Below, in pieces: positions 2,430 to 17,843 of a DNA stretch of 20,513 nucleotides. The position numbers and the translations under genes were made by a program. Position 1 is the first letter of the stretch. Every line of letters starts with the position of its first letter. Under the pieces are notes generated by a model. That model ran no database searches and was not told where the DNA came from. It saw nothing but the letters and a program-made list of their open reading frames with translations. Source of the DNA: a virus; the IMG/VR virus record IMGVR_UViG_3300028844_003003, positions 1 to 20,513 of that record. One strand, given 5' to 3'.

Positions 2430-3188
2430 TCAGTCAATTTTATAGAATTCGTCTTTGACTTTACCTGTGTACTTATACTCTCCAATATGGCTTATTTCCT
2501 CATCTGTAAGAGCATATATCTTCTCTCCAATTGATGTCCAAAGTTTACAGAAATAAAAGTCCTCTCCCATATATGTTTTATTTTTAGGACTCCAATAAGT
2601 ATCAAAAAAGTTATAATAATTAGGTCTATCAACCATCTCACCATTCATTAAAGTCTTTTGTTTAATGACTAATTCTTCATAGTTTTTAATAAGTTTGTTA
2701 AAAGCAGATCTCTTAATCATCATCATACCAGTAGGTCCTTTTATTACCTCTATAAAGCCATCAACAGGTTTAATGTTTTTAGTGTCTGGTAATTCGATAG
2801 GAAAAAGATGACCCATAGTATTAATATCATCATCAGGTCTAGCTTCTAGATCATTTCTTATTTTATTATCTGTCTTTTGTTTCATAGGGTAAGGTATTAA
2901 GCTAACCTCATGCTCTGATTTAAATAGTCTATAAACCGATCTAGTACTAAACTCTATGTCTGAATCTATAAATAACATTTGATCTGCATCTGAGTTTAAG
3001 AAAGCAGAAGCACATAAGTTTCTACCTTGTGTAACTAATGATGACTTCATCAATTGAAAGGTAATCTTAGTCTTATTTAAAATACATTCTTTCTGTAAAT
3101 CTAAACAGGCTTTCATAAAGTGTATTGATACATCAGAATGCACAGGAGTACACACCATTAAGTGATTCTTATTTATTTCGTTTGACAT
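2430..3188 (-). CDS. GT-A-like glycosyltransferase
   Basis: The 252-residue protein has the GT-A order: V-C-T-P-V-H-S (12-18), Q-G-R-N-L-C-A-S-A-F-L (54-64), then M-L-F-I-D-S-D-I-E-F (71-80) with the D75-x-D77 metal motif. K-G-P-T-G-M-M-M-I-K-R (148-158) is the acceptor-side strand, and G-E-D-F-Y-F-C-K-L-W (207-216) carries the likely catalytic acidic pair. An AAGGAG ribosome site 5-6 nt before ATG 3188 confirms the start although it lies within the preceding glycosyltransferase. The two enzymes probably act together, perhaps glycosylating a virion or host-surface component. The acceptor and sugar are unknown. Confidence 0.78.
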   Translation of the reverse strand: MSNEINKNHLMVCTPVHSDVSIHFMKACLDLQKECILNKTKITFQLMKSSLVTQGRNLCASAFLNSDADQMLFIDSDIEFSTRSVYRLFKSEHEVSLIPYPMKQKTDNKIRNDLEARPDDDINTMGHLFPIELPDTKNIKPVDGFIEVIKGPTGMMMIKRSAFNKLIKNYEELVIKQKTLMNGEMVDRPNYYNFFDTYWSPKNKTYMGEDFYFCKLWTSIGEKIYALTDEEISHIGEYKYTGKVKDEFYKID

Positions 3189-4107
3189 TGATGGCTCCTT
3201 TTAAAAAGTTATTCCAATGATTTCCAATATACTTCCAATCGTAAAATCGCTTGTAATATTCTTGTTGAAATTTAAGTGGGTTAGTTAGATCTTGTGACAG
3301 CATTCTTTTAGTCTGTAAAATACATTCAGCTAGTTGTAATGCTAGTTTAGGTTTATTCTGTGTATAAGGAATATAGATTGGAAACTCACAACAAGTTTCT
3401 GGTAAGGCGCCGAGATCCGTGGTTATTAAAATCTGACCTGCTGCTAATGATTCCATAGCAGATATACAAAATGTTTCTTCCCAAATACTAGGGAAACAAT
3501 TAACATCATAATCTTTTAATTTACTGACTAATGTTTTGTGATCACAGTAACCCATGTAATTAACATTAGGCATGTTCTTAGCTTTATCATATAAAGGTTT
3601 GTACTGATCATCATTTTGTTGTTCAAATGTTTTACCGTATATAATGGTACTTGAATAAACATCTAAGGTTATATCTGGATCTTTGATTCCATCCATAGCA
3701 GCTAAAGCTATTTCTAGTCCTCTCCAAGGCGTAGAGATATAACACATCTTAATTTTTTTCTTTGGTGTAAAATCTGTTTTTAATTGTAGCTCATCATAGT
3801 CAATTGCATTTTTAATTACTGTGCATTTATCTTCAGGTATTTTAAAAAAGTACCTATACTTTTCATAACTCCAATGTGAGTTAAACACATACCAATCATA
3901 TTTAGAATGATTGTCTTTGTTTTGAAACCAAGGTGCTAAGTTAGGTTGATCGTATGAATTTTTTAACCAAAGTATATTTGGTTTTATAGGATCTAAAGGT
4001 TCTTTTTCAGGAATAGACGTCGTAATCTGTACTGAATCTAACACTCCTTGATCTGAGTATTTCTTTAAATATCCTAGTTGTATTTCAGTACCGCCTGCTG
4101 GTTGCAT
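3169..4107 (-). CDS. GT-B glycosyltransferase (GT4-like)
   Basis: The 312-residue protein shows a GT4-type layout. An N-terminal A-G-G-T-E-I-Q motif (4-10) corresponds to the GG-x-E nucleotide-sugar loop. Y-V-F-N-S-H-W-S (73-80) and V-I-K-N-A-I-D (97-103) are typical of the inter-domain region. The C-terminal Rossmann domain has P-S-I-W-E-E-T-F-C-I-S-A-M-E-S-L-A-A-G with the EX7E pair E211 and E219, followed by T-D-L-G-A-L-P-E-T (230-238). It is expected to transfer a sugar from an NDP-sugar to an unknown acceptor. It starts in TAATG with the previous gene and overlaps the next glycosyltransferase by 20 nt. The N-terminus is very short before the GG motif, as in other phage members. Confidence 0.82.
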   Translation of the reverse strand: MQPAGGTEIQLGYLKKYSDQGVLDSVQITTSIPEKEPLDPIKPNILWLKNSYDQPNLAPWFQNKDNHSKYDWYVFNSHWSYEKYRYFFKIPEDKCTVIKNAIDYDELQLKTDFTPKKKIKMCYISTPWRGLEIALAAMDGIKDPDITLDVYSSTIIYGKTFEQQNDDQYKPLYDKAKNMPNVNYMGYCDHKTLVSKLKDYDVNCFPSIWEETFCISAMESLAAGQILITTDLGALPETCCEFPIYIPYTQNKPKLALQLAECILQTKRMLSQDLTNPLKFQQEYYKRFYDWKYIGNHWNNFLKGAINVKRNK

Positions 4108-6919: not shown

Positions 6920-7243
6920 CTATTTTGGTAATATTATATTCCAATCTAGCTTAGAAATTAAGTCCTCTAATTGAACCTTCTTTAAATTATTAACCTTCAA
7001 ATACTCAATTAATTCTTCCATATCAACAATAATCCATTGATCTTTAATATCAAAAACCATTTTATCGGCCTTAGAATTAAAAAATCCTCCTTTAGTGTTA
7101 TTTTTTAAAGGTCTTAGATCAAATTTTAATAACTGATTTGATTTATCTTTTATAATACCTTCTATATCCCAACATTCTTTTTTTCTTTGTATGGGAGTAG
7201 CAATATTAACCTGACTTAAGTTACGTTGAAATTTATTATACAT
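6920..7243 (-). CDS. unrecognised 107-aa protein at the end of the island
   Basis: I do not recognise this protein. It begins MYNKFQRNLSQVNIATPIQR, has a charged middle (D-L-R-P-L-K-N-N-T-K-G-G-F-F at about 42-55), then two likely beta strands K-M-V-F-D-I and W-I-I-V-D-M leading into a Leu-rich helix E-E-L-I-E-Y-L and a Lys/Leu tail. It contains one Cys, no signal peptide and no membrane segment. The strand-D-strand-helix order faintly recalls small nuclease-like folds but no catalytic set is clear. It overlaps the preceding oxygenase by 28 nt and shares the island's AT-rich, Lys/Asn-rich make-up, so it probably belongs to the same acquired unit. Confidence 0.6.
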   Translation of the reverse strand: MYNKFQRNLSQVNIATPIQRKKECWDIEGIIKDKSNQLLKFDLRPLKNNTKGGFFNSKADKMVFDIKDQWIIVDMEELIEYLKVNNLKKVQLEDLISKLDWNIILPK

Positions 7244-7713
7244 CTAGTTCCATTAGTAGGTTGCTCTGCAGTATGCCATAGGGAACCATCAAAAGTAATC
7301 ATTCTTCCTTGTTTAGGAGTAATTCTTTTCCATTCTTTTTTATTTTTAAAAATAACAGTATCCCCATCAGAATCTTTTACATAATAAATATATACTTGAT
7401 GTGGTTTTTCGACATCTATGTGTGGAGGATCTTGTTTATTTTTAAGTAGCTTTGGATTTAATGGTAATTGCACAAACATTCTAGCACAATCTACATTACC
7501 TTTTATAATATCTTTAAAAATATTTAATACTTCTGCTTGTTTTGTTTGGATCTTATCGTCCAATATAAAATTATGATTAAAAGCAGGACAATAATCTTTA
7601 CTACTTTTATCAGTAATATTATTCATATACCATAGTGGCATCGCAGATGAGAGTAATATATTTTTTAACCACTCTTGTTTTTCTTTCGAAAGAGCTCGCT
7701 CTATAACTTTCAT
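7216..7713 (-). CDS. small 2OG-Fe(II) oxygenase
   Basis: This 165-residue dioxygenase has a full active-site set: H98-x-D100 in P-P-H-I-D-V-E, H147 in S-L-W-H-T-A-E, and R157 in G-T-R-C-I-I-N-F-N. The strands V-Y-I-Y-Y-V-K-D (107-114), D-G-D-T-V-I-F (116-122) and G-R-M-I-T-F-D-G (136-143) match short phage oxygenases. It is the ninth and last oxygenase of the island and the only one after the tail-associated protein. Its sequence layout is nearest to the 166-aa protein at 11437-11937. Its end overlaps the next gene by 28 nt. The substrate is unknown. Confidence 0.8.
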   Translation of the reverse strand: MKVIERALSKEKQEWLKNILLSSAMPLWYMNNITDKSSKDYCPAFNHNFILDDKIQTKQAEVLNIFKDIIKGNVDCARMFVQLPLNPKLLKNKQDPPHIDVEKPHQVYIYYVKDSDGDTVIFKNKKEWKRITPKQGRMITFDGSLWHTAEQPTNGTRCIINFNVT

Positions 7714-7735: not shown

Positions 7736-8224
7736 TTATTCTGCAGTCCAAGTCAGAGTTTCAGGATCCCAAATAAAAAGATTAGTAGGAGTTGAGTTAT
7801 CCATACCTTTCCATCTTAAATTATCTTCGTCCCACATAATTCCGTATGGAAGTTCAACACCACTTACTGTGTAAGTTTCAACAGTTGGGAATGGAACTGG
7901 TGCATCCCACGTATCGTCGTCTTGTAAAGTCCATGATGCATAAGGTTGCGCTGGAATAAATTTATCCCCTTCATAGTCATAAATGTCTGAAGTCGCAGCA
8001 AACTTTCCTCTTAAACCATCTTTAAAAGTTTGTCTCCAAGTACCACCTTTGAACCAATTAGTTACCCATGTTTCTCCATCGGCATGTCTAGGGTTATCAA
8101 CTAAAGGTCCATCTGCAGTTGGTATATCATTTCCAACAACAACAGTGTTTTGAACTTCCCAATGTTGACCACCTTGATCAAAAGGTCTGTTTCTTAATTC
8201 AATTCGTGCAAAATATTGTGCCAT
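7736..8224 (-). CDS. tail-fibre-associated virion protein family, 162 aa
   Basis: The protein reads MAQYFARIELRN at the start and contains W-R-Q-T-F-K-D-G-L-R-G-K-F-A (about 62-75), Y-D-Y-E-G-D-K-F-I-P-A-Q-P-Y-A-S-W-T-L (82-100), W-D-A-P-V-P-F-P (106-113) and a C-terminal W-D-P-E-T-L-T-W. This layout (…R.nyA..G..Yd...d.FippkPy.SWtLde…W.apvpyP) belongs to a family common in marine T4-like and T7-like phages, where it lies among tail-fibre genes. It has a clear AGGAGA site, less AT-rich DNA than the oxygenases around it, and its own promoter candidate. It is a virion-type protein embedded inside the enzyme island. The exact role is unknown; capsid/tail surface or fibre maturation are possible. 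Confidence 0.68.
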   Translation of the reverse strand: MAQYFARIELRNRPFDQGGQHWEVQNTVVVGNDIPTADGPLVDNPRHADGETWVTNWFKGGTWRQTFKDGLRGKFAATSDIYDYEGDKFIPAQPYASWTLQDDDTWDAPVPFPTVETYTVSGVELPYGIMWDEDNLRWKGMDNSTPTNLFIWDPETLTWTAE

Positions 8225-8234
8225 AATTTCTCCT

Positions 8235-8264
8235 ATTATATAACGGCTTGTTCCATCATGTCAA
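8235..8264 (-). promoter_or_regulatory. candidate sigma70 promoter with full consensus hexamers
   Basis: On the minus strand TTGACA (8264-8259), an 18-nt spacer and TATAAT (8240-8235) match the sigma70 consensus at all twelve positions. The elements overlap the last codons of the DUF6445-like gene and lie just before the ATG (8224) of the tail-associated protein. The expected start near 8228 would put the AGGAG ribosome site (8234-8230) upstream of the transcript, leaving a leader of only a few bases. So either the RNA is nearly leaderless, or the ribosome site serves read-through mRNA. No experimental evidence is available here. Confidence 0.5.
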
Positions 8265-8931
8265 GCCTAGTTCGAGGGGTTGATTTTACTTTAAGTTTAT
8301 TAATAAAGAATACCATGGTCAACCTGTCCTCACCAGGTTTAGTCCATAGATTATCTGCGGCATGCCACTGGCTTCCGTCAAATGCTGCTAATGTATTATA
8401 TATATTTTTAAAAGTATGTGTTTTTACAAACTGTTTTCTTAAATAGTTATACTTTTGAGTATATATCTTTTCGTTGTATTTACCACGCAAATAAAGATCT
8501 TCTTTAATTTTAATACAGGTTTTATTTCTTACAGGTTCTTTTTTTAAAGTATAAAGACTTGTACCTGACTCAGGGAAACTGTTTTTATTTAAATAAATAA
8601 TACCACCTAAAGCTCCAGCGTCTCTATGTATCCAACCTTTATTTCTTATGTCATCTTTCGATTTAGAAAAAGCTTTTGATTTGTGGAAAAAAATATAAGT
8701 ATTAGAAAATTCTAAACCTCTCATGTCCTCATAATATAAAGATAGTATCGACAAAATAGTTCTATTAAATAGTTCTTTATCTATATTGTAAAGATTATCT
8801 GTTCTTACTCCTGGCCATGAACCATCTGTTTTGTTTATATTAGTTTTGTAATCTAGTTTTTTCGAATACTTTACTAATTCGTCGGGATCATTAAAAAAGT
8901 TGTTTACACTAGTTATTGGGAAAAAATTCAT
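8236..8931 (-). CDS. DUF6445-like 2OG oxygenase-fold protein
   Basis: The 231-residue protein has N-terminal F-F-N-D-P-D-E-L-V-K-Y (12-22) and P-G-V-R-T-D (40-45), typical of DUF6445-like proteins. W100-I-H102-R-D104-A-G is followed by G-G-I-I-Y-L-N (109-115) and G-T-S-L-Y (123-127). The distal site is F-D-G-S-Q-W-H190-A-A, with R203 in E-D-R-L-T-M-V-F-F. The set H102/D104/H190/R203 fits an Fe(II)/2OG oxygenase. An AGGAC ribosome site lies 5-6 nt before the ATG even though the start is inside the upstream gene. In bacteria, as I recall, DUF6445 genes often neighbour tryptophan-halogenase homologues, so this pairing may be functional. A perfect promoter consensus overlaps its 3' end. Confidence 0.75.
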   Translation of the reverse strand: MNFFPITSVNNFFNDPDELVKYSKKLDYKTNINKTDGSWPGVRTDNLYNIDKELFNRTILSILSLYYEDMRGLEFSNTYIFFHKSKAFSKSKDDIRNKGWIHRDAGALGGIIYLNKNSFPESGTSLYTLKKEPVRNKTCIKIKEDLYLRGKYNEKIYTQKYNYLRKQFVKTHTFKNIYNTLAAFDGSQWHAADNLWTKPGEDRLTMVFFINKLKVKSTPRTRLDMMEQAVI

Positions 8932-9541
8932 CTTTGTCCTTTTTAAACTCTGAGGGTAAACCTACCATAGGTCTTGTATCAAATTTTTTTGTTGATGTAA
9001 TTTCATTATAATGCAGAAATACTTGACTTGAATTATCCCCCGTAAACTCTTCCCTGTAATGTTCCATCTTATCTCCTTTATACATTAACAGATCCCCCGC
9101 CTTTAAATTTATTTTTATACCTGCCTGCGCTACTCTACCTGAAGCATCAAGGTATATTGGCCATTCGTCACCACCTAAATGTAAAGTTGCTGATATAGTA
9201 CATTCTTCTCTGTCGGTGTGTCTCGCTAAAACATCTCCGTTTTTATAACGCCTAGCATATGAATATTGTTCAACTAAATCAAAACCAGATTTTTCTTCAA
9301 TCTTATCTTTCAACAGAACTAGTAAAGTTTCATAAGCAGGATCTCCATAAACTGAATACGTATTAGGTATTTGTCCGTCATTCATACAACCCCAACTATC
9401 GTCATACGGAGATAAAAATCTAGTTTTTTGTAAATAATCAAAAGCCTGTTTTCTTATTTCCATGTAATTATAAAGAAAATTACACAGCTCTTTATCAATT
9501 GCTTTTTTAATAACTAAAAAATTATTTTTTTTAAAACTCAT
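8909..9541 (-). CDS. 2OG-Fe(II) oxygenase-like protein
   Basis: The 210-residue protein has Y-S-Y-A-R-R-Y-K-N-G-D-V-L-A-R-H-T-D-R-E (93-112), giving H108-x-D110, then S-A-T-L-H-L-G (117-123), W-P-I-Y-L (127-131), L-K-A-G-D-L-L-M-Y-K-G (146-156) and M-E-H-Y-R-E-E (159-165) with H161. The final strand S-S-Q-V-F-L-H-Y-N holds Q173 and H177 where other members have an Arg or Lys 2OG contact, so R163 or another basic residue may take that role. This is a distinct oxygenase subgroup that I have seen in marine microbes, but I cannot name the family. It overlaps the next gene by 23 nt. Confidence 0.72.
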   Translation of the reverse strand: MSFKKNNFLVIKKAIDKELCNFLYNYMEIRKQAFDYLQKTRFLSPYDDSWGCMNDGQIPNTYSVYGDPAYETLLVLLKDKIEEKSGFDLVEQYSYARRYKNGDVLARHTDREECTISATLHLGGDEWPIYLDASGRVAQAGIKINLKAGDLLMYKGDKMEHYREEFTGDNSSQVFLHYNEITSTKKFDTRPMVGLPSEFKKDKDEFFPNN

Positions 9542-9543
9542 TT

Positions 9544-10059
9544 TTAATCTTCATTAATTTTTTTAAAATCTTTAGTAAACCAAGTGGCTAATATACCTCT
9601 TTGTCCTTTTATTATTTCTGTAACACCATGTAAATTATCACTTTTAAAAATTAATGTAAAGCCCTTTTTAGGTGTGTAACTTTTTTTGCCTACAAAAGTA
9701 TTACCTCCCTCAAAGTCATTATTTAAATATGTAACAGCGCTAACATATCTATGCTTTAAATAATCTAATCTATTATCGATATGCGCTTCCATACTTTTGC
9801 CTTTGTTCCAAAGAACTAAATCTGCAAAAGCAGGGTAGACTATTTGTTTATATTTTAAAGAAACCATTATACTTAATTTTAAAGTATAGTTTTGTATTAA
9901 TTTATTTATCTCTCTGTCTTTTATATCATCTAAAATTATATTATTATTTTCAAACCAAGGTCTTATGTTACCTTTTAAAAAAGTACCACTAGTATTATTT
10001 TTTAAATAATTATAAATTAAATCACAATCTTTATCTGGTATTAATCTAATTAAACTCAT
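9544..10059 (-). CDS. 2OG-Fe(II) oxygenase, P4H-like
   Basis: This is a 171-residue prolyl-4-hydroxylase-like protein. H93-x-D95 lies in E-A-H-I-D-N-R, H144 in S-D-N-L-H-G-V, and R154 in K-G-Q-R-G-I-L-A-T-W, so the metal and 2OG site is complete. The middle block Y-L-N-N-D-F-E-G-G-N-T-F (111-122) and P-K-K-G-F-T-L-I-F (130-138) are standard for the family. The ATG lies inside the end of the halogenase gene (14-nt overlap), making translational coupling between halogenase and this oxygenase likely. Three nucleotides separate its stop from the next gene. It is more like the 187-aa protein at 13196-13759 than the others, but with Asp instead of Glu. The substrate is unknown. Confidence 0.82.
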   Translation of the reverse strand: MSLIRLIPDKDCDLIYNYLKNNTSGTFLKGNIRPWFENNNIILDDIKDREINKLIQNYTLKLSIMVSLKYKQIVYPAFADLVLWNKGKSMEAHIDNRLDYLKHRYVSAVTYLNNDFEGGNTFVGKKSYTPKKGFTLIFKSDNLHGVTEIIKGQRGILATWFTKDFKKINED

Positions 10060-11434
10060 GTCTTACTCTTGTGAGCCATTCTTTGTGGGTTATAAAATTT
10101 TTAGTATTTTTATATTTAATAAGACTTCGTTGTTTCAATTGAGCTGCAAGCATATTATATTGTTTCTTTATATTTTTTACATTAATTAATCCTAAGCCAT
10201 GCATGACAACAATATAGTGAGGATCCCTAAATAATAAGTATTGAGTATCATTAAAATCTTCTCTTATAGGTAATCTTGTTTTAAATAAGTCTAGCCTATC
10301 TTTTAAAGAATCAGGAAATTTTTGTTCTCTCCAAAATTTTTCTTTTCTATTAGTAATGTAATGCATAGAAATAAAATCTCTTATATTTAACATTATTTTT
10401 TCTATAGTTTCGTTATATCTATCTATTGTCTTTTGGTTATAGTTTGAAAGATAATGACTTAATAAATACGCAGATTGTATACTTGTACCTATAGAACTTG
10501 CTTCAAGAGGTTCTACAAAATTAGCACTTAGACCTACAGCAAAACAATTTTTTATCCACGATTTATCGAGATAGCCAGGTGTAAATTTAATTTGTTTTCT
10601 AACTTGTATTTTATGTTTAAGTTTTTTTTCAACTTCTTCTTGAGCTTGAGTTTCATTTATTATGTTGGAATCATATATGTATCCATTACCATGCCTGCCC
10701 CAAACAGGGATATTAAACATCCAACCAGATGACATAGCTGTAGCAGTCGTATAAGGATTATAGTTATTTAAATCTTTTGTAGGAAAAACAATTGCTGAAT
10801 TAACTTTTAAATATTTACTAAAATCTATCCATTTGTTTTTAAAGTTATTAATTAAAACTCTTCTAAATCCTGTGCAATCTATGTAAAAATTACTTTTATA
10901 TTTTTTGTTTCCCTTAATAAAATCAATTCCGTCTTTATTAAGTTTTACTTGTTTAATAGTATCTTCTTCAATCGTAACACCTCTTTCCATACATTTCTTT
11001 TGAAGGTATTCATTTAATTTAAAAGTATCAAAATGGAATTGGTTTACTGGTGTTTTATCTTCTGGATTTATTTTTTTTGATAAGTAATCTTTGCCAAATA
11101 CACCATTGTTTACAACATAATCAAAATAGCCTAAATGCTCTTGTCCAAATTTTTTATCAAAATGCACTGTATGTAAATAATCTTTTTTACCCCAACCTTT
11201 AAAATAAATTCCAGATTTTAAAGTACAATTACATTCTCTTATAACTTCATTATAGTCTAAACCACACCAACCCATAAAATCTATCCAATGCTCTGTACTT
11301 CCTTCACCAACACCGATGATGTCTATATCTTTTGACTTTATAATTTTTATATTAATATTTTCCTGATACTTTGATTCTAAAATTAAAGCTGTAACTAAAC
11401 CTGCAGTTCCTGCGCCTACTATAGTTATTTTCAT
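10046..11434 (-). CDS. flavin-dependent tryptophan halogenase-like protein
   Basis: The 462-residue protein carries the FAD-binding start MKITIVGAGTAGLVTA (GxGxxG at 7-12) and a second G-V-G-E-G-S motif (41-46), then the family lysine context T-L-K-S-G-I-Y-F with K73 as the candidate catalytic lysine. The halogenase signature W-x-W-x-I-P appears as W238-M-F-N-I-P243, with Phe in place of the second Trp. The F-V-E-P-L-E-A-S-S motif (306-314) matches the conserved EPLE segment. Known members use FADH2, O2 and chloride or bromide to halogenate tryptophan or other indoles. No flavin reductase is in the window; the host's would be needed. At 462 residues it is shorter than PrnA/RebH (about 530). 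It overlaps the next oxygenase by 14 nt. The natural substrate is unknown. Confidence 0.85.
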   Translation of the reverse strand: MKITIVGAGTAGLVTALILESKYQENINIKIIKSKDIDIIGVGEGSTEHWIDFMGWCGLDYNEVIRECNCTLKSGIYFKGWGKKDYLHTVHFDKKFGQEHLGYFDYVVNNGVFGKDYLSKKINPEDKTPVNQFHFDTFKLNEYLQKKCMERGVTIEEDTIKQVKLNKDGIDFIKGNKKYKSNFYIDCTGFRRVLINNFKNKWIDFSKYLKVNSAIVFPTKDLNNYNPYTTATAMSSGWMFNIPVWGRHGNGYIYDSNIINETQAQEEVEKKLKHKIQVRKQIKFTPGYLDKSWIKNCFAVGLSANFVEPLEASSIGTSIQSAYLLSHYLSNYNQKTIDRYNETIEKIMLNIRDFISMHYITNRKEKFWREQKFPDSLKDRLDLFKTRLPIREDFNDTQYLLFRDPHYIVVMHGLGLINVKNIKKQYNMLAAQLKQRSLIKYKNTKNFITHKEWLTRVRHEFN

Positions 11435-11436
11435 TT

Positions 11437-11937
11437 TTAACCCTTGTAATAATTAAAGTTTATAACAACTCTAAAAGGATCACCAGTTTTATGAGTTACT
11501 GCCTTGTGGTAAGTTGTAGAGTCAAAAGTAACCATTCTATTTTCTTTGGCTTTTACTTTTTTTTCATTGTTTATTTTAAAAATAGTTGCACCTCTATCAG
11601 TCAAATAAAATAGTGATGTTGTTGCGTGTTTTATTTTCCCTGTATCAATATGAAAAATATCATCAACCTTGTTGTTGTAAAACGTTAAATTAGCTTTTTC
11701 TCTAATAATAGCACTTACTTTTAATTTTTTTCTTATAGGATCTAACAGTTTAAACCATTCACTGTTGGGTGTGTTGTTGTCATAAAATAGATGTGTAAGT
11801 TGTCTATCCCCCTCGTTAGGTTTTGTTTTACCATTTTGAGCAAACCAAGCAACTTTTGTGCCTAGCATTACATCTTTTATTTCTTGATAAACTTCTTTGT
11901 GTAAAAAGTTATCTATTATTTCTATTTTATCTTTCAC
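11437..11937 (-). CDS. small 2OG-Fe(II) oxygenase
   Basis: This is a compact 166-residue dioxygenase with the complete motif set: H96-x-D98 in I-F-H-I-D-T-G, H144 in T-T-Y-H-K-A-V, and R156 in P-F-R-V-V-I-N-F-N. Strand blocks T-S-L-F-Y-L-T-D (107-114) and N-R-M-V-T-F-D-S (133-140) match the short oxygenases frequent in marine T4-like phages. The start is GTG (11937), 3 nt after the previous stop, with no strong ribosome site, so translation is probably coupled. It resembles the 165-aa oxygenase at 7216-7713 (…-R-M-I-T-F-D-G-…-H-T-A-E) more than the others. It immediately precedes the halogenase gene. Confidence 0.8.
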   Translation of the reverse strand: MKDKIEIIDNFLHKEVYQEIKDVMLGTKVAWFAQNGKTKPNEGDRQLTHLFYDNNTPNSEWFKLLDPIRKKLKVSAIIREKANLTFYNNKVDDIFHIDTGKIKHATTSLFYLTDRGATIFKINNEKKVKAKENRMVTFDSTTYHKAVTHKTGDPFRVVINFNYYKG

Positions 11938-11940
11938 TTT

Positions 11941-12531
11941 TTAATCTACTTGGTTAGGGTTAATTCTAAAATTATAAGCTAGTGAAATTCTTTCTTCTTT
12001 ATCTTTTTTCATTTCTACACAATGATGAAGAGAAGATCTAAATATAAGAAGATTACCTTGAACAGAATTAAAATAACAATTAGGACTTAGTAATCTTGTT
12101 TGAACATCATTTTCAATATTATATAATCCTCTATCTTGTTGAAAACCAATTCTTGGTGAAGATGTATTTGATTTAAGAACATATATTACAGATATATCTC
12201 TAGACGGGTGACAATGAAATTCTTGAAAATCATGTTGTTTATAAACATTAAACCAACCTTCTTTAAAAATAATTTTTTGTGTGCTATTTAATTTAGTTAA
12301 ATACTCATACACTTTTTCATAAATTATATTATTAATTAATTTAAATTTAGGATCGTCACATATGTTATGGGTATGACACGTTTGGTATAATTTTGAGATC
12401 CAATCATTCTCAATATTAGGAGTCTTCTTTTGTATTTTTTTACAAACAGGAACTATTTTTTTTGCTATTTCATTATGGTTGGGTAAAATCTCTTGTCCTA
12501 TTAATGTAGGAAACCATGACTCAATATTCAC
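11941..12531 (-). CDS. 2OG-FeII_Oxy_5-like (PF13759-type) oxygenase
   Basis: The 196-residue protein starts with W-F-P-T-L-I-G, typical of this family's N-terminus, which supports the GTG start at 12531. The first metal motif is H106-C-H108 within F-H-C-H-P-S-R-D-I-S-V-I-Y-V-L; the distal ligand is H169 or H170 in F-R-S-S-L-H-H. The 2OG-binding arginine is R181 in E-R-I-S-L-A-Y-N-F. It is broadly similar in layout to the preceding 222-aa protein but clearly diverged (different lengths and loops), so it is not a recent tandem duplicate. Three nucleotides separate it from the gene before and three from the gene after. The substrate is unknown. Confidence 0.75.
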   Translation of the reverse strand: MNIESWFPTLIGQEILPNHNEIAKKIVPVCKKIQKKTPNIENDWISKLYQTCHTHNICDDPKFKLINNIIYEKVYEYLTKLNSTQKIIFKEGWFNVYKQHDFQEFHCHPSRDISVIYVLKSNTSSPRIGFQQDRGLYNIENDVQTRLLSPNCYFNSVQGNLLIFRSSLHHCVEMKKDKEERISLAYNFRINPNQVD

Positions 12532-14382: not shown

Positions 14383-15312
14383 CTAATCAAACGTAACGCA
14401 ACCAGATACTACAAATTTAAGTACTGTAGCAGCACCTGCTGTGATAATAGAATTACATCCTGGTGTTACCGCTATTTTACCTGGTTTACAAGAAGTTGGA
14501 AATCTTAAATAAACTGCACCGCTAGCTCCAGTTGAAACACACGCATTACCACTTCCTCCACCGCCACCGCCTTGGTTAGCTGTAGGTATAAAAGGTGCAC
14601 CTAATCTAGCAGTTGGGGCGTTTGCGCCTCCATCTCCTCTTCCGTTACAACCTCCATTATTGCAGTTTCCCTGACCGCCACCACCGCAGCCGTAGTTTCT
14701 ACAAGTTCCGTCTATATTTGATACGTGACCATTTCCGCCTGATCCAATTCCACCAACACCACCGACTTGGCCTGCGCAACATCTTCCGCCACCGCCACCG
14801 GCTCTAAATCTTGCTGGAGGGTTTCCAATTGGTCCTGATGTACCTGCTCCTGGATTACCATAACATGAACCAGCCCCACCACTTGTAGGACCTCCGTTGT
14901 GGTTACATCCACCACCGCCACCGGATCCACCGCCTGGGTTTGGTGCTGCAGCTCCTGATCGAGCTCTTCCATTTCCACCGCCACCGCCACCGACGCTGAT
15001 AGCTGAAGGCTCACATTTAAATGCTATAGATGTTGAGCCAGAAGTTCCGGGACTTCCGATAGTACCCCCTGCTCCAACTTGAATTGAGATTGATCCACAA
15101 TCAGTATTTTTAGTAATACTAGAAGTTCCTGGAGCATTGTAAGAATAGTGAACTCCCCCGGCTCCGCCGCCGCCTCCGGTATCACCTGTTCCTCCACCGC
15201 CACCGCCGCCGATGACCATAAAATCATATGTAATACAACGTGGTCCGCATACGAAGGAAGTTCCTCCAAATCCTTTTGTTGATCCTGCTGCAAATGATCC
15301 TAATACTGGCAT
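14383..15312 (-). CDS. Gly- and Cys-rich fibre-tip protein (probable adhesin)
   Basis: The 309-residue protein has long glycine blocks (residues 35-53, 108-113, 127-135, 172-176, 209-213, 248-253) set between short Asn/Ser/Pro loops. The start of the block, FMVIGGGGGGG ... GGGGGAGG, and the tail GASGAVYLRFP resemble Gly_rich_2-type phage fibre domains and polyglycine-II sandwiches of gp38-like adhesins. It has about 16 cysteines, unusual for a phage fibre, several paired closely (VCGPRC, RCC, C-R-N-Y-G-C, C-N-N-G-G-C). A strong AAGGAGG site precedes ATG 15312. It is the last fibre gene before the oxygenase/halogenase island. Receptor binding is inferred from composition and position. Confidence 0.7.
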   Translation of the reverse strand: MPVLGSFAAGSTKGFGGTSFVCGPRCITYDFMVIGGGGGGGTGDTGGGGGAGGVHYSYNAPGTSSITKNTDCGSISIQVGAGGTIGSPGTSGSTSIAFKCEPSAISVGGGGGGNGRARSGAAAPNPGGGSGGGGGCNHNGGPTSGGAGSCYGNPGAGTSGPIGNPPARFRAGGGGGRCCAGQVGGVGGIGSGGNGHVSNIDGTCRNYGCGGGGQGNCNNGGCNGRGDGGANAPTARLGAPFIPTANQGGGGGGSGNACVSTGASGAVYLRFPTSCKPGKIAVTPGCNSIITAGAATVLKFVVSGCVTFD

Positions 15313-16445: not shown

Positions 16446-17843
16446 TTACGCCGCCTTGTCAACAACCGTCCAAGTAGGACTTGTTCCAGGGTCGACTAGC
16501 TCCCATACGTTTAGTCCAATTATACCAGTAGATGTGGTCATTGTCACTCCCGTAGGGAAAGCCTCTACACTTAAACCAGCTGTTGGAACGCCCATTGTAG
16601 TTGTTAATTCTATACCTGTAGGACTAGCTATTGTAACTGCTTCAGATGTTTCATCACCTAACGTAAGAGTCAATTGTTGACCAGAAGCTACAATATTTGC
16701 GTCTGCAGTAATAGATATTGCATTTACTGTAGTATTTAATTGAACACCTGTTATATCTGTATCAGGAGCAGGATCCACGGTTCCTTCATCCGCAGTCATT
16801 GAGATATCAACAGTAGCCTGACCCCATAGTTGTTGACCCCATTCAATTGTTGAACCCCAACCTGGATTAAATTGTGAGCTTACAGGAACATTAACTGAAA
16901 CATCAACATCTGTGATTGATACACCACCCCATTCTGTGTTGCTTGAACCCCATGTATCTTCACCCCAAGTTTGTGTGACTGAAGAACCAATAGATAAACT
17001 CTGTCCTGTTACATCAACAAATGCCCAATCTCCTTCAGCACCCCAAGCTTCAGCACCCCAATCATCTCTACCCCAACCCTGTTCGTTGTAAGCTTGAACT
17101 GTTCCAAGAGATGTTGCGAGGCTCACACCTGAAGGCATAACATCTGGTGCAGGATCAACTGTACCTTCTGATATTGTTAAAGCGTTAAGTGGATTTTCGG
17201 ATAAGAAAACTTCTGTAGCAATTGTAATAGCTACAGAGCCGGTAGTACTATTTAATTCTTCAGCTTGTGTTATAGGTATTTCATTAAATATACCAATATC
17301 TACTGAACCTGTACCACCCCATCTTGTATTATAAGATGACCATGTATCTTGGCCCCAAGGGTCTTGGTTTGAGTCAATTGAAAAAGATGCTTGGTTTCCA
17401 CTTAAAAGTACATCACCTCTAATACCCCAAGCTTTTGTTCCCCATGTTAAAGCACCCCAACCTGTATTAATTTCGTTATCAATTGTTACTGATTCTACTG
17501 AAGTAGCTAAACTTAAATTTGATGGAATTACAGTTCCATAACCATTCCAAATATTTGAACCGTAAGTTTTTCTACCCCAACCTTCATTAACTATACCCTC
17601 AGCTGTTTCATCACCTACAGATAAAGTAAGACTATTACCTGTTGGAATTATTGTGTTGTTAAGAAGATCTCCCCAAAGATTAAAGTTCCATTGTTTTCCA
17701 CCCCAACCTATCTCATTAAAAGCTTCGGGAGTGTTAATAGAAAATGTAGGAGATTGATCACCGCCATATGAACCGTAGCCATATTCTTGGTAACCGTAAT
17801 TGGTAAGACCCGCTGACGATACCTGTACTGTAATATCTGCCAT
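16446..17843 (-). CDS. Trp/Gly-repeat virion structural protein
   Basis: This 465-residue acidic protein is built from repeated beta units. The core repeat is G-W-G-x3-W-G/N-x3-W-G, seen near residues 46-58, 89-100, 128-140, 257-268 and 328-341. A second unit is W-G-x-D-T-W-S/G-S-x-N-T-x-W-G-G (163-177 and 293-307). Further duplicates are EGTVDPAPD (226-234 and 353-361) and LTLSVGDET / LTLTLGDET (72-80 and 391-399). I count 23 tryptophans, about 5% of residues. The ATG has a GGGAGG ribosome site. It lies just before the tail-fibre gene, so a fibre or tail-surface role is likely. Similar Trp-Gly-rich proteins occur in marine myo- and podoviruses. Confidence 0.7.
   Translation of the reverse strand: MADITVQVSSAGLTNYGYQEYGYGSYGGDQSPTFSINTPEAFNEIGWGGKQWNFNLWGDLLNNTIIPTGNSLTLSVGDETAEGIVNEGWGRKTYGSNIWNGYGTVIPSNLSLATSVESVTIDNEINTGWGALTWGTKAWGIRGDVLLSGNQASFSIDSNQDPWGQDTWSSYNTRWGGTGSVDIGIFNEIPITQAEELNSTTGSVAITIATEVFLSENPLNALTISEGTVDPAPDVMPSGVSLATSLGTVQAYNEQGWGRDDWGAEAWGAEGDWAFVDVTGQSLSIGSSVTQTWGEDTWGSSNTEWGGVSITDVDVSVNVPVSSQFNPGWGSTIEWGQQLWGQATVDISMTADEGTVDPAPDTDITGVQLNTTVNAISITADANIVASGQQLTLTLGDETSEAVTIASPTGIELTTTMGVPTAGLSVEAFPTGVTMTTSTGIIGLNVWELVDPGTSPTWTVVDKAA

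Follow-up and report, generated by a model that had tools for sequence, protein, structure and literature searches.

The question raised by this locus is what a tryptophan-halogenase homologue with an altered signature motif does in the genome of a marine phage, and whether the motif or the surrounding genes set it apart. The window, i.e. the whole 20,513-nucleotide stretch of DNA analysed here (IMG/VR record IMGVR_UViG_3300028844_003003), is a 20.5-kb viral contig in which the halogenase gene is intact. Genes for halogenases and 2OG oxygenases have been known in phages since the early cyanophage genomes, and speculative roles in antibiotic protection, DNA repair or nitrogen stress have been suggested for them in the literature.

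The halogenase gene

An open frame over the positions assigned to the gene by the first-pass annotation exists on the minus strand only, which that annotation had omitted while giving the coordinates correctly. The product matches the Pfam family Trp_halogenase (PF04820) over residues 2-418 with an E-value of 1.7e-89 and 301 bits (curated cut-off 21) and PHROG 2928 ('tryptophan halogenase') with 2.2e-100. The GxGxxG motif, the catalytic lysine and the catalytic glutamate of PF04820 are all present, as GAGTAG (residues 7-12), K73 within LKSG (72-75) and EPLE (308-311). The exact W-x-W-x-I-P signature is replaced by WMFNIP (238-243) but was not treated as family-defining; according to a review it is a signature without being universal, and it or its variants are missing from a number of flavin-dependent halogenases (FDHs). 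Pfam, PHROG and motifs thus bear out the earlier description of a phage tryptophan-halogenase homologue with intact catalytic Lys and Glu, and the GxGxxG, K73, EPLE and W-x-F-x-I-P elements were all recovered, K73 and E308/E311 at the residue numbers given there. The protein is indeed shorter than PrnA and RebH, although by about 75-90 rather than about 70 residues when compared with the PDB chains (538 for PrnA and 550 for RebH). This shortening falls partly into the stretch that separates the Lys from the HxD segment, where residues 84-132 align against 86-167 of PyrH; from Lys to HxD the window's protein has 60 residues, compared to 89 for VirX1. By sequence position, the Trp2 and Trp3 substrate motifs belong to the same region (PMC8269204).

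Synonymous and nonsynonymous codon differences amount to 34:9, 47:12 and 46:12 relative to three close relatives and to 137:124 relative to a 73% relative; the gene is intact and under purifying selection. The evidence for a complete FDH homologue is strong, and we infer its activity and substrate below. The gene is real and had mostly been read rightly, but its motif had been given too much weight; what is unusual are the gene's neighbours (Table 1). PADLOC defence models gave no match for the FDH, for which reason a defence-system reading was dropped; three of the five neighbours tested matched a generic 2OG model only.

Table 1. Genes of the window discussed in the text.
Position	Strand	Product	Remarks
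7216-7713	-	2OG-like protein	PHROG 274; HxD...H
7736-8224	-	Trp-rich protein, candidate substrate	6.2% W; PHROG 7759
8236-8931	-	2OG-like protein	DUF6445 just under cut-off; PHROG 1644; HxD...H
8909-9541	-	2OG-like oxygenase	PHROG 2954; HxD...H; directly after FDH in 23/28 related loci
9544-10059	-	2OG-Fe(II) oxygenase, P4H-like	PF13640; overlaps FDH by 14 nt; in 5/28 related loci; weak kin of prolyl 3-/4-hydroxylases (2e-5, sequence)
10046-11434	-	FDH homologue, 462 aa	K73; W238-x-F240-x-I-P; E308/E311; S313-S314 at halide site
11437-11937	-	2OG-Fe(II) oxygenase-like	below Pfam cut-off; PHROG 274; HxD...H; stops 2 nt ahead of FDH
11941-12531	-	2OG-Fe(II) oxygenase	PF13759
12535-13203	-	2OG-Fe(II) oxygenase	PF13759
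13196-13759	-	2OG-Fe(II) oxygenase	PF13640
13759-14337	-	2OG-Fe(II) oxygenase	PF13640; kin of PKHD-type hydroxylases (5e-6, sequence)
14383-15312	-	Gly-rich tail-fibre-like protein, candidate substrate	Gly_rich_2 PF21722; PHROG 2295; no Trp; 5' end of block
16446-17843	-	WG-repeat protein, weaker candidate substrate	4.9% W; no PHROG match

The signature motif among relatives

The W-x-F form had been taken as a possible sign of a shifted substrate or reaction, an interpretation which the distribution of the motif does not support. According to the alignment table, the 153 listed viral-contig FDH ORFs read W-x-F in 76, W-x-W in 73, W-x-L in three cases and Y-x-F in one, based on the best 80 of at least 592 relatives in the viral scan and on loci many of which are near-identical, such that the counts are not independent. 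W-x-F also occurs in 19 of 67 FDH ORFs from bacterial contigs (W-x-W in the other 48) and in 74 of 95 close homologues (W-x-W in 20), while all 12 named-phage ORFs carry W-x-W. K73, E308, E311, F306 and P309 are kept in 153/153 listed viral ORFs; since the relatives were fetched with patterns including [NS]F[VI]EPLEA, the invariance of this segment partly reflects how they were chosen, from which K73 and the tandem FDHs in the flanks are exempt. On a quick tree of 78 rows, in which the motif's own columns were kept and only W and F labels were counted, at least four W/F changes are required. In a few rows (SB64, Syn10_A, PSSM2 and others) the regular-expression motif labels of this tree are incorrect, and the alignment table was therefore preferred. 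The window's FDH belongs to a clade of 45 rows, almost all of them from phages, whose sister group consists of three bacterial MAG rows. Because W and F replace each other repeatedly while the catalytic residues stay, W-x-F is a clade-wide and ordinary feature uncoupled from any loss of halogenase residues.

Individual copies deviate at other positions. EPLQ replaces EPLE (E311 to Gln) in the FDHs of the named phages S-PM2 (L031), Syn1 (L033) and Campylobacter phage CP21 (L036), and the FDH frame is interrupted by an in-frame stop in the S-PM2 copy AJ630128 (L031, about 9001-10473) and in locus L021 (10001-11443).

Predicted structure, halide site and substrate class

The AF2 model of the window's FDH, calculated from 68 sequences of the window and the fetched loci, has a mean pLDDT of 94.7 and a pTM of 0.93. 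Comparison with solved FDHs by Foldseek and VIA-align gave near full-length matches to SttH (Z 45.0), AbeH (45.0), Xcc4156 (44.7) and PyrH (44.5) as well as to BrvH (42.8), PrnA (42.2), MibH (40.5) and VirX1 (36.9); the predicted three-dimensional fold is that of an FDH. An overlay on PrnA and BrvH had been recommended as a check, and since the model displays the full-length FDH fold, the outcomes that would have argued against a halogenase are absent from the prediction, the placement of K73 being judged by alignment.

At the halide site the signature F..P..S.G reads F..P..A.S, with S314 in place of Gly. A loss of function by this exchange was considered and rejected, as the brominating BrvH has a Ser at the second halide position too; two brominating Xcc enzymes are likewise described with Ser there. 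A preference for bromide might be deduced from Ser314. The Trp4 motif of free-tryptophan halogenases, with patterns taken from PMC8269204, is absent from the window's FDH, from all 153 listed viral ORFs and from the 12 named-phage ORFs; by this criterion the window's enzyme falls outside the PrnA/RebH/PyrH class. With Ser at the second halide position and no Trp4 motif it conforms to BrvH-like brominases, an assignment based on motifs and not on the tree, which contains no PDB sequences. A substrate larger than free tryptophan, perhaps a protein, is likely on these sequence grounds, because the Trp4 motif is absent and the lid is short.

Among characterized enzymes, BrvH and Xcc4156 (open-site brominating FDHs; pdb-codes 6frl and 6y1w) have the same fold and likewise carry no Gly at the second halide position, which is Ser in BrvH and Asn in Xcc4156. 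BrvH also shares the absence of Trp4. The active site of Xcc4156 is described as open, with substrates 'possibly even peptides'. In contrast to these enzymes, to which identity is only about 25%, the window's FDH has W-x-F and is encoded by a phage gene within a 2OG block. VirX1, the iodinase/brominase of cyanophage Syn10 (6qgm), is likewise a viral FDH whose gene has a 2OG battery and Gly-rich tail-fibre-like genes as neighbours, but it forms a separate supported clade on the quick tree, carries W-x-W and EPLESTG and shares 22% identity. The nearest named-phage relatives, annotated 'PrnA' in P-SSM2, S-H38 and S-SCSM2R, are 37-41% identical and have the halide motif EPLEA[ST]S, whereas they read W-x-W and lack a comparable compact block in their annotated regions. 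MibH and SrpI, peptidyl Trp halogenases with the FDH fold, differ in that their substrates are natural-product peptides, their activity has been shown and their genes are not phage genes. MibH is reported to chlorinate a peptide Trp after proline hydroxylation of the same peptide, and SrpI to be an obligate peptidyl brominase.

FDHs as a family are described to use FADH2, to generate HOX at the flavin and to hand it on via Lys and Glu, the reductase being a distinct partner protein whose gene may lie elsewhere. No flavin reductase (PF01613) was detected in the window, as previously noted, or in 29 related phage records. This absence is less informative than had been implied, since the Syn10 record, the source of the active VirX1, is also devoid of a reductase.

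The oxygenase block and its conservation

The FDH gene is surrounded by nine ORFs with 2OG-oxygenase signatures (Pfam, PHROG or HxD/E/H...H), and the block extends between the Gly_rich_2 tail-fibre-like gene and the virion genes. The G+C content at 9-14 kb is 26-29%, compared to 30-44% elsewhere in the window. The PHROG label 'ferrochelatase' for the ORF at 8909-9541 looks wrong in view of its 2OG-type HxD...H.

Across the window and 28 loci from the same clade, the genes follow the order Gly-rich, several 2OG, FDH, 2OG of the PHROG 2954 type, 2OG of the DUF6445 type and Trp-rich, with gains and losses; the 2OG labels in the relatives were assigned with HMMs built from the window's own proteins. 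The Gly-rich gene is found in 21/29 loci, i.e. in all 21 that reach its position, as the remaining eight start inside the block, and the Trp-rich gene in 27/29, i.e. in all 27 that reach it (L012 and L014 stop short). More broadly, a 2OG ORF lies at most 300 nt from the FDH in 69 of the 94 listed viral loci. The ten Trp columns of the Trp-rich protein are conserved to 97% on average (21 rows), more than F, Y, G and P. Its AF2 model (pLDDT 88.1, pTM 0.74) retrieved no PDB match at E <= 0.001, and from BFVD only phage proteins without a named function.

The translational overlap of the FDH with the P4H-like gene, which amounts to 14 nt, had been considered in the first-pass annotation a sign of a common target. 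However, the P4H-like gene follows the FDH in only 5/28 related loci; the overlap is therefore recent and does not sustain that conclusion. The broader suggestion that FDH and oxygenases act together finds its support in the conserved block instead.

The nearest phages are the SAR11 podophages HTVC023P (57%) and HTVC027P (54%), as judged over one virion protein. Their corresponding regions contain a smaller 2OG set and no FDH among the CDS tested. HTVC023P and 023Pt, which have no FDH match, contain 2OG genes, Gly_rich_2 domains and a Trp-rich homologue; Gly_rich_2 thus tracks the tail/2OG region rather than the FDH. The WG-repeat protein was set aside as a specific substrate, as HTVC027P has a W-rich counterpart (3.4% W) and no FDH match among the CDS tested.

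Contigs with several halogenases

FDH ORFs of 390 aa or more are present in 91 of the 94 listed viral loci, with one copy in 64, two in 12, three in two, four in six and five in seven. Pfam indicated up to five full-length FDH genes plus one shorter on single contigs, some five-FDH contigs also carrying 9-12 2OG ORFs. On the quick tree these copies belong to deep subfamilies, the VirX1 clade among them, and in contigs with four or five intact FDHs all catalytic residues are kept. Four or five different FDH ORFs are interleaved with 2OG ORFs in L018, L020, L021, L022, L025, L061, L062, L067, L074 and L079, and in L007 (4821-7684) a VirX1-clade FDH directly abuts an orthologue of the window's FDH. 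In Syn10, where VirX1 corresponds to the CDS L029:7989-9581, two FDHs and three Gly-rich ORFs lie side by side with 2OG ORFs; two of the Gly-rich ORFs match Gly_rich_2 and one matches tail-fibre PHROGs. In P-SSM2, S-B64 and S-MbCM6 the FDH is located among non-tail genes.

The association of Gly-rich and 2OG genes was analysed in the window, in a 60-kb Syn10 slice and in chosen long contigs that underlie 15 of the 94 viral loci. Gly-rich ORFs defined by composition occur in 11/12 of the records that hold five or more 2OG ORFs and in 0/5 with fewer; by Pfam, Gly_rich_2 is also recognized in G012, which belongs to the latter five, and is missing from G009, a record of the former twelve that ends at an FDH. 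In a rotation test on nine genomes (two contigs and, out of 13 complete named phages, the seven that match Gly_rich_2), Gly-rich and 2OG genes lie within 2 kb in seven, compared to a null mean of 2.7, and within 1.5 kb in four, compared to 2.4. The proximity signal is modest and threshold-dependent.

Proposed function and alternatives

We tentatively propose, with somewhat less than even confidence, that the halogenase works as an open-site BrvH-like FDH in a phage cassette for the modification of virion tail proteins. The enzyme would be an FAD-dependent halogenase, probably a brominase, which receives reduced flavin from the host; HOBr (or HOCl) would be formed at the flavin, and K73/E311 would pass it on to an aromatic residue within a protein, not to free tryptophan. 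Hydroxylation by the 2OG oxygenases and halogenation by the FDH would be directed at tail proteins encoded alongside, namely one or both of the Gly-rich tail-fibre-like and Trp-rich proteins, and might alter receptor contacts or stability. Tail proteins are put forward as the target because the block is conserved together with tail-like genes. Counted against this proposal are the lack of Trp in the window's Gly-rich protein and the occurrence of Gly-rich, Trp-rich and 2OG genes independently of an FDH (HTVC023P, 023Pt), as well as the modest Gly-rich/2OG proximity signal and the FDHs found among non-tail genes (P-SSM2, S-B64, S-MbCM6); the cassettes may simply gather near tail genes. This leads to the alternative that morons including FDH and 2OG genes collect at a tail-gene hotspot and have unrelated targets. 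The scattering of 2OG genes across cyanophage genomes, the variable FDH and 2OG content of relatives and related phages without an FDH match at the corresponding site fit such passengers, which we nevertheless regard as unlikely given that the gene order on either side of the FDH persists among FDHs sharing 63-99% identity with that of the window and that the contigs with four or five intact FDHs retain all catalytic residues. An inactive relic or a catalytically dead paralogue, as might be suspected from the copies with an in-frame stop (S-PM2, AJ630128; L021) and the three named-phage copies with Gln for E311, is highly improbable for the window, whose copy is intact and under purifying selection and whose catalytic residues are invariant in the viral contigs.

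Two further alternatives concern the reaction itself. As an auxiliary metabolic gene product, the FDH might halogenate a metabolite of the host, such as free tryptophan or indole, for instance to protect the infected cell from an antibiotic. Such a role has been proposed in print for the cyanophage prnA, VirX1 is reported to act in vitro on many small aromatics and some phage FDHs are found among metabolic genes. The missing Trp4 motif in the window and in 153/153 listed viral ORFs, the lack of other biosynthetic enzymes seen around the FDH and the tie of the block to tail-like genes render this role improbable in our estimate. Still less credit is given to a flavin monooxygenase, in which the W-to-F exchange would let the substrate approach the flavin so that a protein Trp or Tyr becomes hydroxylated as in QhpG/LodB-type maturation. 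LodB and QhpG are described as related flavoproteins with protein Trp as their target, and QhpG, itself similar to FDHs, as an enzyme that dihydroxylates this residue; the best NCBIfam relative of the window's protein is LodB, and W-x-F occurs in distant cellular proteins as well. However, the LodB score of 34.1 bits is far under the cut-off of 400, QhpG is not listed for the window's protein, the catalytic Lys and Glu of halogenases are fully kept and close relatives switch freely between W and F. The W-x-F cellular proteins were also considered as LodB-type enzymes and rejected, since none of the five tested (L152, L153, L160, L162 and L165) matches LodB at 1e-6 and the weak QhpG scores obtained for two of them stay far under the cut-off.

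Returning to tail-protein modification, a bolder version, which we consider doubtful, would be that marine phages possess a dedicated virion-tailoring island in which up to five different FDHs and about a dozen 2OG enzymes place halogenated and hydroxylated residues in a pattern on the tail-fibre adhesins and their Trp-rich partner and thereby diversify host recognition by chemical means, the natural role of VirX1 being one step. Titles and abstract openings of the papers listed in topical searches contained no report of halogenated tail proteins, which does not prove its absence. Block conservation, contigs with several halogenases and the position of VirX1 together lead to one testable statement, the presence of bromine and hydroxyl groups on the tail proteins of cultured phages such as Syn10. 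If true, viruses would halogenate their own structural proteins.

Additional observations

A function-unassigned protein of about 242 aa (PHROG 17480 in L062) is located between two FDHs of multi-FDH contigs. GroEL-like ORFs, identified by eye, lie at the far edge of the multi-FDH cassette in L062 (374-2047), L074 (384-2376) and L018 (557-2558), with GroES-like ORFs, also by eye, at the edges in L074 and L018; a tail-fibre-assembly-like protein adjoins the GroEL/GroES-like ORFs. Phage-type FDH/2OG genes were also encountered in bacterial MAG or single-cell contigs (L107, L108, L109 and L113), which are probably phage contigs binned with bacteria. Finally, two glycosyltransferase-like ORFs were recognized by eye beside the virion genes of the window (2430-4107), and HTVC023P and HTVC027P have annotated glycosyltransferases in the corresponding region.
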